Origin: an uncultured Maribacter sp.
GTDB taxonomy: Bacteria; Bacteroidota; Bacteroidia; Flavobacteriales; Flavobacteriaceae
Assembly: GCA_947504045.1 (NCBI GenBank)
Contig: CANNFY010000001.1
Coordinates: 682,001 to 746,000 of the forward strand
Direction of reading: 5' to 3'
Length of the DNA: 64,000 bases
Shown here: piece after piece, positions 3,394 through 49,920 of the stretch
Layout: the number at the start of each line of letters is the position of its first letter
How positions within the stretch are numbered: position 1 is the stretch's first letter
Notes under the pieces: model-generated
Databases searched by the model: none
What the model was told of the DNA's origin: nothing
Seen by the model: the letters and a program-made list of their open reading frames with translations, nothing else
Program-made: the position numbers and the translations under genes

Positions 3394-5325
3394 TTGCAAA
3401 TACTTAAATACCTATTTACTCTTTTTATACTAATAACATATACTAATAATGTTTATGCACAAGGGGTAGATATAAAATTTATAGAACTTACAGATAGCCT
3501 AATAAAAACTAACCCAAAAACATATAAAGAACTAGACAAGGTTTTAAGGTTTAAAAGAAAAGACACCTTATATATGCGATATTTTGCAAATAGTGCAGAA
3601 AAAAAAGAGTGTTATGCTGGGCAATCTTATGCTTTAAACCAGTTAGGAAGAAGGTATAGAGCATATTCACAATTTTCTAAAGCAATAGCATTACATAACT
3701 TAGCTTTAGAGGCTGCAACTAAAAAAAACAACCTAGAGTTTAAAGTGTTTAGCCTTAATATGCTTAGTGTTGTCTACCGAAGAACAGATGCCATTAAAAC
3801 TGCTTTAGATTATAACCAAGAAGCTTTAGAACTAGCAGAAACTGTTAAAAATCCATCCGATAATTTAAAACGAAGTATAAATGTTTCATTAAACGGTATT
3901 GGTAATATATACCAAACTTTAGAACAGTATGATTTAGCTATAAAACAATTTAAAAAATCTATGCTTTTAGAAGATGCATTAGGTAATAAATTAGGTATAG
4001 CAATTAACCATCAAAACATTGGAGAATGCCAAGAGGCTAAATTAAATTTAGAAGATGCCTTAGAAAGTTATAAAACATCTCTAAAAGTAAATAATGAGAT
4101 AGAGAATGAAATGGGAATAGTTATTTGCAAAAATAGTATTGGCCAAATATATGTAAAACAAGATAAAATAGATAAAGCACTAGCTATTTTAAAACCAACT
4201 TTAGCAAGATCAAAAGCTTTAGGAGACCAGTATGTAACTTCTGCTATTCATATAAATATAGGAACTGCTTTAATGAAAAAAAGTTTGTATTCCGAGGCTG
4301 AAAAAAACATGTTAGTAGGACTAGAATTAGCAAAAAAACACAACTTACCAAGCGGTATAATAAAAGCCAACTTAAACCTTTCTGACCTATATTCTACACA
4401 AGGTAAATTCGAAAAATCTTTAGAGTATTATAAAAAAGCACAAAATATTGATGAAGAAATTACTAATGTTAGAAATTTACGATATGTAAACGACATGATT
4501 ATTAGGTATGATACCGAAAAGAAAAGTAGCCAAATAGAAGTTTTAGCCAAAGAAAATGAAATTGTAAAATTAAAATTAAGAAAAAACAAAACTACTTTAC
4601 TAATTGGCTCTTTTGCACTAACATTACTAGCGGGTATCTTTTTTATACTTTATAGACAATACCAATTAAAAAATGAAAAGCAACTACTTACCCTAGAACA
4701 AACCATGTTACGAAGTCAAATGAATCCTCATTTTCTTTTTAACTCTTTAAACTCTATTAAGCTTTACATTATAAATAACGAGAAAAAAAATGCCGTTTAT
4801 TACCTAAATAAATTTTCTAAACTTGTTCGTAAAATATTAGAAGCTTCCTCTTTAAAAGAAATTCCTTTAGCAGAAGAGTTAGAAACTATAGATTTATATA
4901 TGAATATAGAGAACATACGTTTTTCTAATGAGATTAACTTTACTATTTCTGTAGCGGAAAATATAGATACGCATACCATAAAAATACCTTCGTTAATTTT
5001 ACAGCCTTTTTTAGAAAATGCTGTATGGCACGGTCTTTCTTCTAAAGATGGCGAAAAAAAAATAACCTTAAACGTAAATAAATCTAATGATGGTTTTATT
5101 CATATTACAATAACAGATAATGGTATTGGAAGAACTGAGGCCGAAAAAATTAAAAAAAATAAGGTTCTTAAAAGAAAATCTATTGGTATAGATATTACAA
5201 AAGAGCGATTAACAAATTTCTCTAAAGACTATCAAAACTCTTTTAATATTGAAATTATAGATCTGTTTGACGAAAATAAAAAGCCTACAGGAACACAAGT
5301 GGTATTACATATACCTACCTTTTAA
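3394..5325 (+). CDS. TPR-repeat LytS-like sensor histidine kinase
   Basis: Partner kinase of the LytTR regulator just upstream. A signal peptide (residues 1-22, ending VYAQ) is followed by a periplasmic array of about seven TPR-type helical repeats (about 75-355), a short coiled segment, one membrane helix (about 399-420), and a cytoplasmic His_kinase domain (PF06580) with H446 in MNPHFLFNSL and an ATPase domain carrying DNGIG. Such proteins sense through the TPR region; the ligand is unknown. The gene starts with TTG at 3394: no ATG exists near the signal peptide. Its 3' end overlaps the convergent DUF3109 gene by 11 bp. Confidence 0.9.
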   Translation: MQILKYLFTLFILITYTNNVYAQGVDIKFIELTDSLIKTNPKTYKELDKVLRFKRKDTLYMRYFANSAEKKECYAGQSYALNQLGRRYRAYSQFSKAIALHNLALEAATKKNNLEFKVFSLNMLSVVYRRTDAIKTALDYNQEALELAETVKNPSDNLKRSINVSLNGIGNIYQTLEQYDLAIKQFKKSMLLEDALGNKLGIAINHQNIGECQEAKLNLEDALESYKTSLKVNNEIENEMGIVICKNSIGQIYVKQDKIDKALAILKPTLARSKALGDQYVTSAIHINIGTALMKKSLYSEAEKNMLVGLELAKKHNLPSGIIKANLNLSDLYSTQGKFEKSLEYYKKAQNIDEEITNVRNLRYVNDMIIRYDTEKKSSQIEVLAKENEIVKLKLRKNKTTLLIGSFALTLLAGIFFILYRQYQLKNEKQLLTLEQTMLRSQMNPHFLFNSLNSIKLYIINNEKKNAVYYLNKFSKLVRKILEASSLKEIPLAEELETIDLYMNIENIRFSNEINFTISVAENIDTHTIKIPSLILQPFLENAVWHGLSSKDGEKKITLNVNKSNDGFIHITITDNGIGRTEAEKIKKNKVLKRKSIGIDITKERLTNFSKDYQNSFNIEIIDLFDENKKPTGTQVVLHIPTF

Positions 5326-47000: not shown

Positions 47001-48212
47001 ATGATAGAAAAGAAGACTACTGCCTATGAAAAGGCTGTTCTAATAGGCGTAATTAACAAAGAGCAGAATGAGGAAAAAGTAAAAGAATATCTAGATGAAC
47101 TAGAGTTTCTTACCTATACTGCTGGTGGCGAAGTGTATAAACGTTTTGTACAAAAAGTAGATATACCAAACCCAAAAACACTTATTGGTAGTGGTAAAAT
47201 GGAAGAGGTAGAGGCTTATGTTGAAGAAAACAAAATTGGTTCTGTAATTTTTGATGACGAACTTACGCCAGGACAACAACGTAATATAGAAAAGCAATTA
47301 CGCTGTAAAATTATTGATCGTACCAGTTTAATTCTAGATATTTTTGCACAACGTGCACAAACTAGTTATGCAAGAACACAAGTAGAACTAGCACAATACC
47401 AATATTTACTACCACGTTTAACAGGACTTTGGACCCACTTAGAAAGACAAAAAGGTGGTATTGGTATGCGTGGACCTGGAGAAACAGAAATTGAAACCGA
47501 TAGGCGTATTGTTCGTGATCGTATTACCCTTCTTAAAAAGAAATTACTAAAGATTGATAAGCAAATGGAAACCCAACGTGGTAACCGTGGTGCTCTAGTA
47601 CGTGTTGCCTTGGTTGGGTATACCAATGTTGGTAAGTCTACCTTAATGAATGTTATTAGTAAAAGCGATGTATTTGCAGAAAATAAACTTTTTGCAACTC
47701 TAGATACAACCGTACGTAAAGTGGTATTAGGTAACTTACCTTTTCTTTTAAGTGATACCGTAGGTTTTATTCGCAAATTACCTACACAGCTTGTGGAGAG
47801 CTTTAAAAGTACTTTAGACGAAGTTCGCGAGGCCGATTTATTATTGCATGTTGTAGATATAAGTCATCCTAATTTTGAAGAACACATAGATTCTGTACAA
47901 CAAATTTTATCCGAAATTAAAAGTGCCGATAAAAAAACTATAATGGTCTTTAATAAAATAGACCAATATGCGCATGAAACTATTGAGGCAGATGATTTAA
48001 TTACAGAAAAAACTTCTAAGCATTTTACTATAGAAGAATGGAAACAGACCTGGATGCAAAAAGTTGGAGACAGGGCTCTTTTTATTTCAGCACTAAATAA
48101 AGAAAATTTAGAGGAGTTTAGAAAACGTGTTTATGATGAAGTTAGAGACATTCATGTAACTCGTTTCCCATATAATAATTTTTTATACCCAGAGCATTTA
48201 GATGAATACTAA
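47001..48212 (+). CDS. hflX: GTPase HflX
   Basis: A ribosome-associated GTPase that rescues or splits stalled ribosomes. The 403-residue protein has the N-terminal HflX domain (LIGSGKMEEVEAY, FDDELTPGQQRNIEK), the linker segment ERQKGGIGMRGPGETEIETD, and the G domain with G1 GYTNVGKSTL, G3 DTVGF and G4 NKID. Length is normal. The tandem small-RNA genes start 19 nt past its stop. Confidence 0.96.
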   Translation: MIEKKTTAYEKAVLIGVINKEQNEEKVKEYLDELEFLTYTAGGEVYKRFVQKVDIPNPKTLIGSGKMEEVEAYVEENKIGSVIFDDELTPGQQRNIEKQLRCKIIDRTSLILDIFAQRAQTSYARTQVELAQYQYLLPRLTGLWTHLERQKGGIGMRGPGETEIETDRRIVRDRITLLKKKLLKIDKQMETQRGNRGALVRVALVGYTNVGKSTLMNVISKSDVFAENKLFATLDTTVRKVVLGNLPFLLSDTVGFIRKLPTQLVESFKSTLDEVREADLLLHVVDISHPNFEEHIDSVQQILSEIKSADKKTIMVFNKIDQYAHETIEADDLITEKTSKHFTIEEWKQTWMQKVGDRALFISALNKENLEEFRKRVYDEVRDIHVTRFPYNNFLYPEHLDEY

Positions 48213-48302
48213 ATAACGTATTTAATAAATTTATGTAGTTCATCGAAGAAAGCATACCACTCATATTTTACACAACATTATACTCCTACTTCACAACATA
48301 AA

Positions 48303-48335
48303 TTGTTCAAAATCTTAAGAGCTGTAGTATCTTTG
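48303..48335 (+). promoter_or_regulatory. Canonical promoter of small-RNA copy A
   Basis: TTG (48303-48305) and TATCTTTG (48328-48335) are separated by 22 nt, a full match to the Flavobacterium promoter form TTG-N17-23-TAnnTTTG. Transcription should start near 48341. Confidence 0.75.
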
Positions 48336-48340
48336 AAGTG

Positions 48341-48540
48341 TAATTAAGAAATAGTGTTTACCCCAAATAAACACCAGAGCTTAACCCAAAATGTTAAAGT
48401 TTCTTTTCCCCAAAAAAGAACTTAACCTAAAAAAATTACCGAAGTATATAAACTCGATTATCGAGTAAATTTCGGACCCAAATTTTACAGAATACCTACT
48501 TAATTAAAAAATTGGCCCTTTCCCCAAAAAGGGCTTTTTT
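48341..48540 (+). ncRNA. Candidate small RNA with CCCCAA hairpin loops, copy A
   Basis: About 200 nt, from the predicted start to the terminator T run. Hairpins: H1 GTGTTTA/TAAACAC with loop CCCCAAA (48354-48374); H3 GTTAAAGTTTCTTTT/AAAAGAACTTAAC with loop CCCCAA (48393-48426); H4 ACTCGA/TCGAGT nested in CCGAA/TTCGG (48439-48475); terminator GCCCTTT/AAAGGGC with loop CCCCAA (48515-48534). A weaker H2 (TTAAC/GTTAA, loop CCAAAAT) shares bases with H3, so the two are alternatives. It is not shaped like 6S RNA or tmRNA. Function unknown; a trans-acting or protein-titrating RNA is likely. Confidence 0.75.
48515..48540 (+). terminator. Terminator of small-RNA copy A
   Basis: GCCCTTT pairs with AAAGGGC around CCCCAA, followed by six T residues. 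Confidence 0.88.
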
Positions 48541-48665
48541 AATGCCTTATAATTACAATACTGTAAAAAGAATAAATCAAAAAATAAACACAAGTATGTA
48601 GTTCATCGATGAAAGCATACCACTCCTATTTTACACAACAGTATACTCCTACTTCACAACATAAA

Positions 48666-48698
48666 TTGTTCAAAATCTTAAGAGCTGTAGTATCTTTG
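48666..48698 (+). promoter_or_regulatory. Canonical promoter of small-RNA copy B
   Basis: TTG (48666-48668) and TATCTTTG (48691-48698), 22 nt apart, are identical in form to copy A. Confidence 0.75.
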
Positions 48699-48703
48699 AA
48701 GTG

Positions 48704-48902
48704 TAATTAAGAAATAGTGTTTACCCCAAATAAACACCAGAGCTTAACCCAAAATGTTAAAGTTTCTTTTCCCCAAAAAAGAACTTAACCTAAAAAAATT
48801 ACCGAAGTATATAAACTCGATTATCGAGTTAATTTCGGACCCAAATTTTACAGAATACCTACTTACTAAAAAATTGGCCCTTTCCCCAAAAAGGGCTTTT
48901 TT
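48704..48902 (+). ncRNA. Candidate small RNA with CCCCAA hairpin loops, copy B
   Basis: Nearly identical to copy A: the same H1, H3, H4 and terminator with CCCCAA-type loops. The base change AGTAAA to AGTTAA lengthens the H4 stem by one pair (AACTCGA/TCGAGTT). The hairpin stems are intact in both copies, so both are probably functional. Confidence 0.75.
48877..48902 (+). terminator. Terminator of small-RNA copy B
   Basis: GCCCTTT (48877-48883) and AAAGGGC (48890-48896) with loop CCCCAA, then six T residues. Confidence 0.88.
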
Positions 48903-48944
48903 ATTTTATACTTTTAACTAATTGAATAAAACAATATGTATAAA

Positions 48945-49005: not shown

Positions 49006-49920
49006 TTAGAAAGCATAGTTAAGACCAAACATCCAGTAACTTTGTGTATCTACATCTGTGTTTTCAAGTGTAGCACCTGCAACTGTACTATTTGCAAAAG
49101 ATTCTTGCTTATTACCTCTTAAACCAAATTCAAATCCTAAACCAATTCCTTTCCATATAGAATAACCAAAAGAGTTTATCCATGTCCAGTTAGACAGGTC
49201 GCTGCTCTTATAGCTTTGGAAAGTAGATAAGTTAGTTTTAAAGTTTACTGGTCCTAATTTTCTTGTATAATCAACAACAATTTTTGCACCTAAAGAAGAT
49301 TCGTATGCAGCATCATTATCTGCAAAAACAAAGTTGTAGTTTAATGGGTGTATAACAACTACCATATCAGTTATTGGAGTCCAAGTAGCACCAACACCTA
49401 TATCTAAATATCCAGGGTCATTAAAATTGTTAATAATAGAAGTTCTATATTCTCCTAATGCAGAAACAGCAAATTTGTCACTTAGCTTATAACCGTATAA
49501 AGAAGTAATTGTAAATACATCTGTAGTACCTTCAAAATCTTCACTATCCGTTGCATCATCTTTATCGTCTAATTTTACCCATGCAAGGTTAACATTTCCT
49601 GAGTTTCTCCAGAAGAACTTTTCACGATCTAAGTTTGCAAAAGCATTTACTGCAACTCCTATATTACCAGAACTGTTGTTTGGTGTTCCTTGTAAATACC
49701 AGTTATTAAACCCAGATAAATTAGCTCCTATTGTACCAAAAGCTCCTTTTTTCCAACCTGGAAAAGCATCAATTTTACCTTGTAATGCATCTACTCTACC
49801 TTGGATAGCTGCAACTGAATCTTTTTTTAAGGCTTGTTCTGCCTTTAACTCATCAATCGTTTGGGCGTAACTTGCAGATAAAGCAAATACTGCTACCAAA
49901 GTAAATACTAGTTTTTTCAT
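49006..49920 (-). CDS. DUF3078 outer-membrane beta-barrel-like protein
   Basis: A 304-residue exported protein: signal peptide (residues 1-19, ending SYAQ), a short charged helix (about 22-52; TIDELKAEQALKKDS), then an amphipathic beta-strand-rich region ending in an aromatic residue (MFGLNYAF), as in outer-membrane barrels. It matches DUF3078. Last gene of the SUF-linked series: it lies 72 nt after the DUF2480 gene and is followed by a terminator. Function unknown. Confidence 0.85.
   Translation of the reverse strand: MKKLVFTLVAVFALSASYAQTIDELKAEQALKKDSVAAIQGRVDALQGKIDAFPGWKKGAFGTIGANLSGFNNWYLQGTPNNSSGNIGVAVNAFANLDREKFFWRNSGNVNLAWVKLDDKDDATDSEDFEGTTDVFTITSLYGYKLSDKFAVSALGEYRTSIINNFNDPGYLDIGVGATWTPITDMVVVIHPLNYNFVFADNDAAYESSLGAKIVVDYTRKLGPVNFKTNLSTFQSYKSSDLSNWTWINSFGYSIWKGIGLGFEFGLRGNKQESFANSTVAGATLENTDVDTQSYWMFGLNYAF

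Follow-up and report, generated by a model that had tools for sequence, protein, structure and literature searches.

Two tandem genes in the window (the whole stretch of 64,000 nucleotides that was analysed) are, on the evidence of their sequence, members of a family of structured, apparently noncoding RNAs that is absent from Rfam. We propose that a LytTR-type regulator drives several trans-acting copies of this sRNA, whose loops would titrate an RNA-binding factor, and we give this explanation as a whole a probability of about 0.5.

The two units (48232-48541 and 48595-48903) lie in tandem 3' of hflX and share 98% identity across 310 bp, which confirms two near-identical sRNA genes as an earlier note on this DNA had described them. 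The note had also assigned a promoter, an RNA of about 200 nt and a strong terminator to each unit, and all three could be located by sequence. The promoter reads TTG-22 nt-TATCTTTG, the RNA (predicted ~203 nt) would start at about 48338 in copy 1 and 48701 in copy 2, and the strong intrinsic terminator GGCCCTTTCCCCAAAAAGGGCTTTTTT closes both units (48514-48540 and 48876-48902). The copy 2 RNA folds at -38 kcal/mol, compared with a shuffle mean of -23.4 (z -4.26; 0 of 200 shuffles equally good). In addition, the C-rich loops claimed for H1, H3 and the terminator are present as CCCC loops in the window copies. A whole-assembly search found two full copies, both in the window, and the remaining matches were short. 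A collapsed-repeat artefact is unlikely, because the window copies differ and share one 1.49-Mb contig. The features of the locus are as follows.

47001 to 48212, + strand: hflX, conserved upstream neighbour (TIGR03156)
48235 to 48264, + strand: copy 1 upstream operator pair GTAGTTCAT-12-ACCACTCAT, LytTR consensus-like, 21 bp apart (sequence)
48269 to 48298, + strand: copy 1 proximal operator pair TACACAACA-12-TTCACAACA, its 3' end 4 bp before the -33 TTG
48303 to 48335, + strand: copy 1 promoter TTG-22 nt-TATCTTTG, Bacteroidota -33/-7 type (sequence)
48338 to 48540, + strand: copy 1 sRNA, predicted ~203 nt (promoter and terminator limits; R1 model match 48339-48507, 104.8 bits)
48344 to 48384, + strand: copy 1 H1, closing stem TTAAG...CTTAA, loop ACCCCAAAT (fold and sequence)
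48393 to 48426, + strand: copy 1 H3, loop CCCCAA (loop display and stem covariation)
48439 to 48475, + strand: copy 1 H4, found only in some copies of Maribacter-genus genomes
48476 to 48502, + strand: copy 1 conserved tail ACCCAAATTTTACA...ACCTACTTA, predicted largely single-stranded
48514 to 48540, + strand: copy 1 intrinsic terminator with CCCCAA loop (sequence and fold)
48598 to 48627, + strand: copy 2 upstream operator pair GTAGTTCAT-12-ACCACTCCT (sequence)
48632 to 48661, + strand: copy 2 proximal operator pair TACACAACA-12-TTCACAACA (sequence; 21-nt pair test)
48666 to 48698, + strand: copy 2 promoter (sequence)
48701 to 48902, + strand: copy 2 sRNA, predicted ~202 nt (R1 match 48702-48870, 104.0 bits; fold z -4.26)
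48707 to 48747, + strand: copy 2 H1 (fold and sequence)
48756 to 48789, + strand: copy 2 H3 (fold, loop display and sequence)
48876 to 48902, + strand: copy 2 terminator (fold and sequence)
49006 to 49920, - strand: DUF3078 gene, convergent neighbour (PF11276)

To estimate the spread of the family, a model (R1) of the RNA only, with promoter and terminator excluded, was built from 13 copies of 10 genomes. In this search across Flavobacteriaceae, a check that the earlier note had named, R1 matched 41 of 397 genomes and 28 of 237 genera at E <= 0.01; seven of the 41 genomes had supplied model sequences, and the E-values are rough. Furthermore, BlastN was run on seven other genomes of the genus and found the unit in every one (E <= 7e-33); five additional genera gave it at E <= 1e-5. 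At E <= 0.01, BlastN gave matches in 26 of 99 genomes, but short matches are included, and this figure was left uncounted. The RNA-positive set thus comprises 46 genomes, 41 found by R1 and five further same-genus genomes found by BlastN. At E <= 1, R1 gave 108 matches in the loci examined, and one of them, in a peptide gene (L050, E 0.71), was excluded. The remaining 107 copies, which include ten weak matches (E 0.0018 to 0.9), were used for copies per genome and for the operator pair; loop display, covariation, ORFs and the count of upstream pairs refer to the 97 copies with E < 0.001. There was one copy in 13 of the 46 genomes and two to six copies in 33. In 43 of the 46 genomes, hflX is followed by a copy in the same orientation, the DUF3078 gene is convergent in 41, and further copies sit elsewhere. 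When named genomes were scanned for an exact pattern, 20 stretches matched, from Maribacter, Ulvibacterium, Euzebyella, Pseudozobellia, Aurantibacter, Kriegella, a "Cytophaga sp." record and uncultured or metagenome-assembled Bacteroidota.

The earlier view that no named family fits agrees with Rfam 15, which gave no match at gathering score in the window; the highest-scoring matches over the two sRNAs were to CyaR (21.7 and 21.0 bits, where the cut-off is 47). Ten further loci (relatives and regulon members) likewise gave 0 matches at gathering score. It is hardly credible that the units are a known housekeeping or cis-regulatory RNA, such as 6S RNA, a riboswitch or a 3' element of hflX. The size of ~200 nt and the usual position behind hflX would suit such an RNA, but the 6S-Flavo family (RF01685) has no match at the window locus, and its model finds one copy at another place in each of 12 genomes tested, our own included; all Rfam matches were below threshold. 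Moreover, some copies lie away from hflX, and each window copy has a promoter and a terminator of its own. An origin from phage or plasmid was also considered and rejected, as BlastN of window positions 48205-48910 against two collections returned only short chance-level pieces (E >= 0.2). An ATG ORF of at least 15 aa lies inside the model span in just 9 of the 97 copies; the sRNA of the window appears to be noncoding, and a coding role is unlikely. In the listed titles and abstract openings of open-access papers, we found no description of this sRNA family or of its regulator.

The copies share the skeleton TGTAATTAAG..ATAGTGTT.ACCCCAAAT..GAACTTAACC..[hairpin with CCC(C)AAA]..ACTTAACC..ACCCAAATTTTACA..ACCTACTTAA..terminator. 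The word CCCAA occurs 2.24 times per copy, compared with 0.51 in shuffles, and at least twice in 87 of the 97 copies; CCTACTT is found in 81 of the 97 (mean 0.88 versus 0.02 in shuffles). In local folds, the motif falls in the hairpin loop of H1 in 81 of 93 copies (41% with shuffled flanks) and in that of H3 in 77 of 97 (39% with shuffled flanks), and these two loops are among the most conserved parts of the family. H3 is more stable than its own shuffles (mean z -2.28), while H1 is only slightly so (-0.68). Both hairpins are kept family-wide, whereas H2 (GTTAA/TTAAC) and H4 are confined to copies of the Maribacter genus, and there to part of them. Thus, the mutually exclusive H2/H3 pairing that the earlier note had described is not a conserved feature.

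In H3, the stem covaries around a constant CCC(C)AAA loop. This was seen in 32 distinct hairpins of one strict form, representing 39 of the 97 copies, in which the search pattern fixes the four outer positions, so that positions 5-8 alone bear on covariation. Pair 5 was G-C in 12, A-U in 6, G-U in 6, U-A in 2 and U-G in 1 of the hairpins, with 5 mismatches. Positions 6-8 also vary, with more mismatches (paired in 20/32, 27/32 and 16/31). RNAalifold found no consensus structure when run on 25 RNAs aligned with MAFFT, probably because hairpins of differing length were misaligned, and the left arms were also misaligned in a MAFFT alignment of 21 H3 hairpins. Therefore, loop display and pairing were tested copy by copy.

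The DNA 5' of the copies is strikingly alike, even though R1 saw the RNA alone. In one common form it reads CCGTTCATCGAnGAAA..ACCGTTCATATTTTTCACAACA-N12-GTTCACAACAATAATTT. Two CACAACA-like words at a distance of exactly 21 nt precede 96 of the 107 copies, compared with 95 of 13000 random 130-mers from the same loci, and 11 copies are without the exact 21-nt pair. In 92 of the 96, the second word starts 46-47 nt before the model start. In addition, the upstream operator pair is found in a looser form in 61 of the 97 copies, and in relatives it reads CCGTTCATCGA...ACCGTTCAT. LytTR sites are described in PMC6193735 as 9-bp direct repeats, 11-13 (mostly 12) bp apart and about 4-11 bp upstream of the -35 box. 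The proximal pair of copy 1 (48269-48277 and 48290-48298) has this geometry, with 12 bp between the repeats and 4 bp before the TTG at 48303. Its letters depart from the LytTR consensus, and the upstream pair fits the consensus better.

A search of 18 genomes for the repeat pair (<= 2 mismatches; the reversed-pattern control gave 0 in each) found sites besides those of the RNAs. Twenty were examined, and the recurrent ones belong to a peptide gene, a kinase gene and a second sRNA. The kinase gene is a histidine kinase gene 3' of a REC-LytTR response regulator gene, and the repeat pair precedes it (L177, L178, L182 and L183). Pfam on L177 and L182 gave PF00072 and PF04397 for the regulator, and TPR, HisKA_2 and HATPase for the kinase. 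Furthermore, in 27 of 30 loci, our own genome included, the 700 nt that follow the regulator gene contain the pair on the same strand, compared with 104 of 2600 random windows; in the other three it is absent from the stretch examined. These 30 loci are those that the regulator search recovered from the 46 RNA-positive genomes. The regulator of our own genome is given here.

G000:C2:127463-128212: REC-LytTR response regulator (REC and LytTR domains)

With the L177 regulator as query, an ortholog was found in all 46 RNA-positive genomes at 87-100% identity (the match in G384 spans residues 60-249 only). It was found in one of 34 RNA-negative genomes (G037, 72%), and the rest gave <= 40% identity or nothing at E <= 1e-25. 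The negative set consists of 34 of the 43 such genomes among G009-G056, nine small or less complete ones being excluded; searching the 34 again with R1 at E <= 1 gave four chance-like matches. Fisher's test of the co-occurrence gives p ~1e-21, a value that ignores phylogeny and that shared ancestry could inflate. Among 296 genomes of the order, the regulator was present in 10 at E <= 1e-60, all of them Flavobacteriaceae. Four of the 10 (G221, G248, G209 and G126) are not R1-positive and make, with G037, five regulator-positive genomes without an R1 match. All five carry the repeat pair (<= 2 mismatches), before the peptide gene (G248, G126 and G037) or the second sRNA (G221 twice, G209 and G126); in G248, the pair also precedes a divergent copy of the window RNA behind hflX. 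The same search of five regulator-lacking genomes found four without the pair and one (G040) with a single pair at 2 mismatches.

Taken from sequence, these results make it very probable that the REC-LytTR system regulates the sRNA family directly through the repeats. It is improbable that the RNA family is real and merely co-inherited with a LytTR system that does not act on it. Such co-inheritance would agree with the fact that Fisher's test disregards relatedness, but the RNA-positive and RNA-negative genomes are genera of one family, and the stretch between the regulator and kinase genes has the same repeats in nearly all loci. The 9-12-9 spacing just 5' of the -35/-33 box is also the published LytTR geometry (PMC6193735). 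A LytS/LytTR pair near the peptide gene (G039 and G033; L050 and L172) was the first candidate regulator. The REC-LytTR/HisKA_2 system was preferred, since it has the repeats at its own kinase gene and co-occurs with the RNA. In two genera, no more than 4 kb separates the LytS-type kinase/LytTR pair from the peptide gene (L050 2052-3730 and L172 1306-2981; Pfam on L050 only).

The peptide gene under the same repeats encodes a conserved product of ~35 aa (for example, MDAQINNMPAPKEIQVYRNDFFSGVVHLMRKLFML) and adjoins a CoA-transferase-like gene. The peptide ends in (K/R)KLFML in 11 of 13 loci and has no Pfam match. In our own genome it is placed as follows.

L166 about 4942 to 5049 (G000:C1 near 759.0 kb), - strand: ~35-aa peptide gene, same repeats

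The peptide gene was also seen under these repeats at L167-L174, L050, L281, L285 and L279. Of 13 peptide mRNAs, 9 carry CCCAAA between -50 and +25 relative to the start codon, and 3 of the other 4 carry CTTAACC there; for L172 the upstream in-frame ATG was taken as the start, and the shorter start would add a CCCAAA. Conservation of the protein, or codon constraint, may partly explain the CCCAAA at codons 3-5 of the ORF. Since the peptide gene and the units have promoter repeats and leader motifs in common, the units might be decayed duplicates, that is, leftover leaders of the peptide gene without a function of their own. This is very improbable, because the RNA model reaches 28 of 237 genera, the H3 pairs covary and ORFs are present in so few copies.

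The second sRNA under the same repeats is conserved as well. It has the core TTTTCATTTTCATATAGTGTTCTC followed by a terminator, and it has ATAGTGTT in common with the window RNA. It was found in 13 of the 30 regulator loci, often in the regulator-kinase gap, and is absent from this gap in our own genome (L191). It was seen at L192, L195, L182 and other regulator loci, and also at L180, L181, L185, L277, L278, L280 and L286. The repeat pair occurs with 1-2 mismatches at a few more places (for instance, L175/L176, L179, L184, L282 and L287), which may be chance or minor members. By eye, in G001 and G003 a pair with 1 mismatch stands 5' of another conserved short ORF starting MKNVLLIKEIYLEAFKN (L175 4028, +; L176 3972, -).

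The mechanism that we infer, from transcription and regulator binding to the partner, its target and the sign of regulation, builds on the genes, the family, the loop display, the repeats and the co-occurrence as read from sequence. The TPR-containing HisKA_2 kinase, presumably membrane-linked, would sense a signal. The LytTR regulator would then bind the paired 9-12-9-bp repeats beside the -33 box and switch on one to six RNA genes, the small peptide gene and, in many relatives, the second sRNA; through similar repeats it would probably act on its own kinase gene too. The RNA shows CCC(C)AAA in two hairpin loops and in predicted single strand, in this genus in the terminator loop too, together with CUUAACC and CCUACUU. 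These motifs, multiplied within the RNA and across copies, would provide a higher dose of binding sites. The loops may thus titrate an RNA-binding factor that would otherwise sit on CCCAAA/CUUAACC around start codons, as in the peptide mRNA, and the kinase signal would thereby lead to post-transcriptional de-repression.

Titration is slightly favoured because the loop motifs around the peptide start codon are of the same sense. Genome-wide, ACCCCAAAT also occurs shortly before ATG more often than its reversed control (32 versus 17 in our own genome G000, 42 versus 20 in G039 and 38 versus 10 in G281), but this excess is weak, since overlapping matches and the sRNA copies are both included in the counts. 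We did not rely on this excess of the motif (CCCCAAAT) before ATG. As for the factor itself, a CvfB-like S1-domain protein is a possible candidate partner. Its gene (PF13509 and PF17783; L177 699-1535) precedes the regulator gene at a distance of about 1.7 kb, and similar genes were seen at the same position in L178, L182 and L183. RRM-domain proteins, to which the earlier note had pointed, and cold-shock proteins are further candidates.

Under the same regulator, the RNAs might instead act by base pairing, with the CCCC loops pairing to G-rich mRNA stretches as the three UCCC sites of LhrC do. This is a serious possibility, but well short of an even chance. In our own genome, the 20 nt before ATG show no enrichment of TTTGGGG (69 + 62, or 131, versus 84 + 62, or 146, for the reversed pattern), and the co-regulated peptide mRNA bears the same-sense motif and not its complement. 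In four relatives, TTTGGGG gave 123-130 on the minus strand versus 68-75 in the control and 60-77 on the forward strand versus 57-58, and this asymmetry was counted neither way. Given the CCCAAA in the peptide mRNA and the lack of TTTGGGG excess in our own genome, we therefore incline to titration. LisR, the regulator of LhrC, is of another type than LytTR. Rfam includes LhrC, and no LhrC match was among the Rfam results for the window and the ten loci. In favour of pairing, the anatomy resembles that of LisRK-LhrC in Listeria monocytogenes, where PMC4132741 describes near-identical copies under one two-component system, with redundant C-rich motifs in stem-loop, single strand and terminator. 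Furthermore, the characterised Bacteroides sRNAs pair near start codons, as reported in PMC11697453. In contrast to LhrC, the RNA described here is ~200 nt long and has a putative LytTR regulator and CCCCAAA in place of UCCC, and a peptide gene and a second sRNA stand under the same operator. Flavobacteria are also largely without Shine-Dalgarno pairing.

In layout, LisRK-LhrC and GacA-RsmY/RsmZ are the closest known systems, and judged by this comparison the window sRNAs belong to neither. The main output of GacA, a regulator of LuxR type, is redundant sRNAs with repeated loop motifs that act as a sponge for CsrA/RsmA, and in RsmY/RsmZ these motifs are GGA in hairpin loops. The likeness to GacS/GacA-RsmY/RsmZ is a response regulator that acts on redundant sRNAs with repeated hairpin-loop motifs; the earlier note had drawn the analogy with RsmY/RsmZ, which now gains support from an apparently dedicated two-component regulator (46/46 versus 1/34 genomes; repeats in 27/30 loci). 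The loops here are CCC(C)AAA and not GGA, and the proposed regulator is LytTR. We know of no CsrA-like partner for the window sRNAs and, to our knowledge, no CsrA/Rsm-type circuit is known in Bacteroidota. We suggest tentatively, at not quite even odds, that a Gac/Rsm-like circuit evolved independently in Flavobacteriaceae, in which a LytTR system would chiefly make redundant sponge RNAs, alongside the second sRNA and the ~35-aa peptide, and the CCC(C)AAA loops of these sponges would strip an RNA-binding protein from CCCAAA at start codons. The csRNAs and Qrr are also multicopy sRNAs under a single response regulator. Both CiaRH csRNAs of streptococci and Qrr of Vibrio are named in PMC11697453, and GacAS and RsmY/RsmZ are mentioned in PMC4132741. 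The csRNAs and Qrr differ from the RNAs described here in regulator family and phylum, and no Rfam match to them was found here.

Few Bacteroidota sRNAs have a known regulator. According to PMC11697453, Bacteroidota lack classical RNA chaperones, and the FopS sRNAs, which go with RbpB in Bacteroides thetaiotaomicron, are multicopy paralogs too. As far as that account goes, FopS consists of a single-stranded 5' stretch, which contains a seed termed R1 (not our model), and a terminator, with canonical promoters and no identified regulator. By this description the window RNA is set apart, as two loop hairpins precede its terminator and its operator is LytTR-type. A flavobacterial transcriptome describes other sRNAs, Rfp18 among them (PMC9723704). 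The present system has a narrow regulon that is legible from sequence, with a regulator, a kinase, two sRNA families and one peptide. It offers a set-up for finding which factor, if any, reads the CCCAAA loops. A Gac/Rsm-type or LhrC-type circuit might thereby come to light beyond Proteobacteria and Firmicutes.

Some copies are variant or rearranged. A paralogous subfamily (TGTATTTGAAATTTAGTGTTAGTCCCAAA..., with a TACATTCG-like -7 region in several) lies near ordinary copies and has the same repeats (L098 5666, L110 5844, L045 6107, L089 5992, L094 4418, L102 5961, L087 5726, L109 5534 and L118 5047). In one copy of G005 (L042 4821-5267), about 165 nt are inserted within the RNA. At the hflX locus, varying cargo genes (HTH-like, receiver-domain proteins and others) lie between RNA copies in a manner resembling a recombination hotspot (L037 3566-10884, L038 3641-6396, L039 3354-6421 and L046 4842-9750). 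In addition, small palindromes CCCGAT...ATCGGG occur at or near a CCC site of the RNA in several copies (L037 6085, L037 10690, L038 3746 and L038 6179), and similar ones were seen in L098, L110, L127, L129 and L124.
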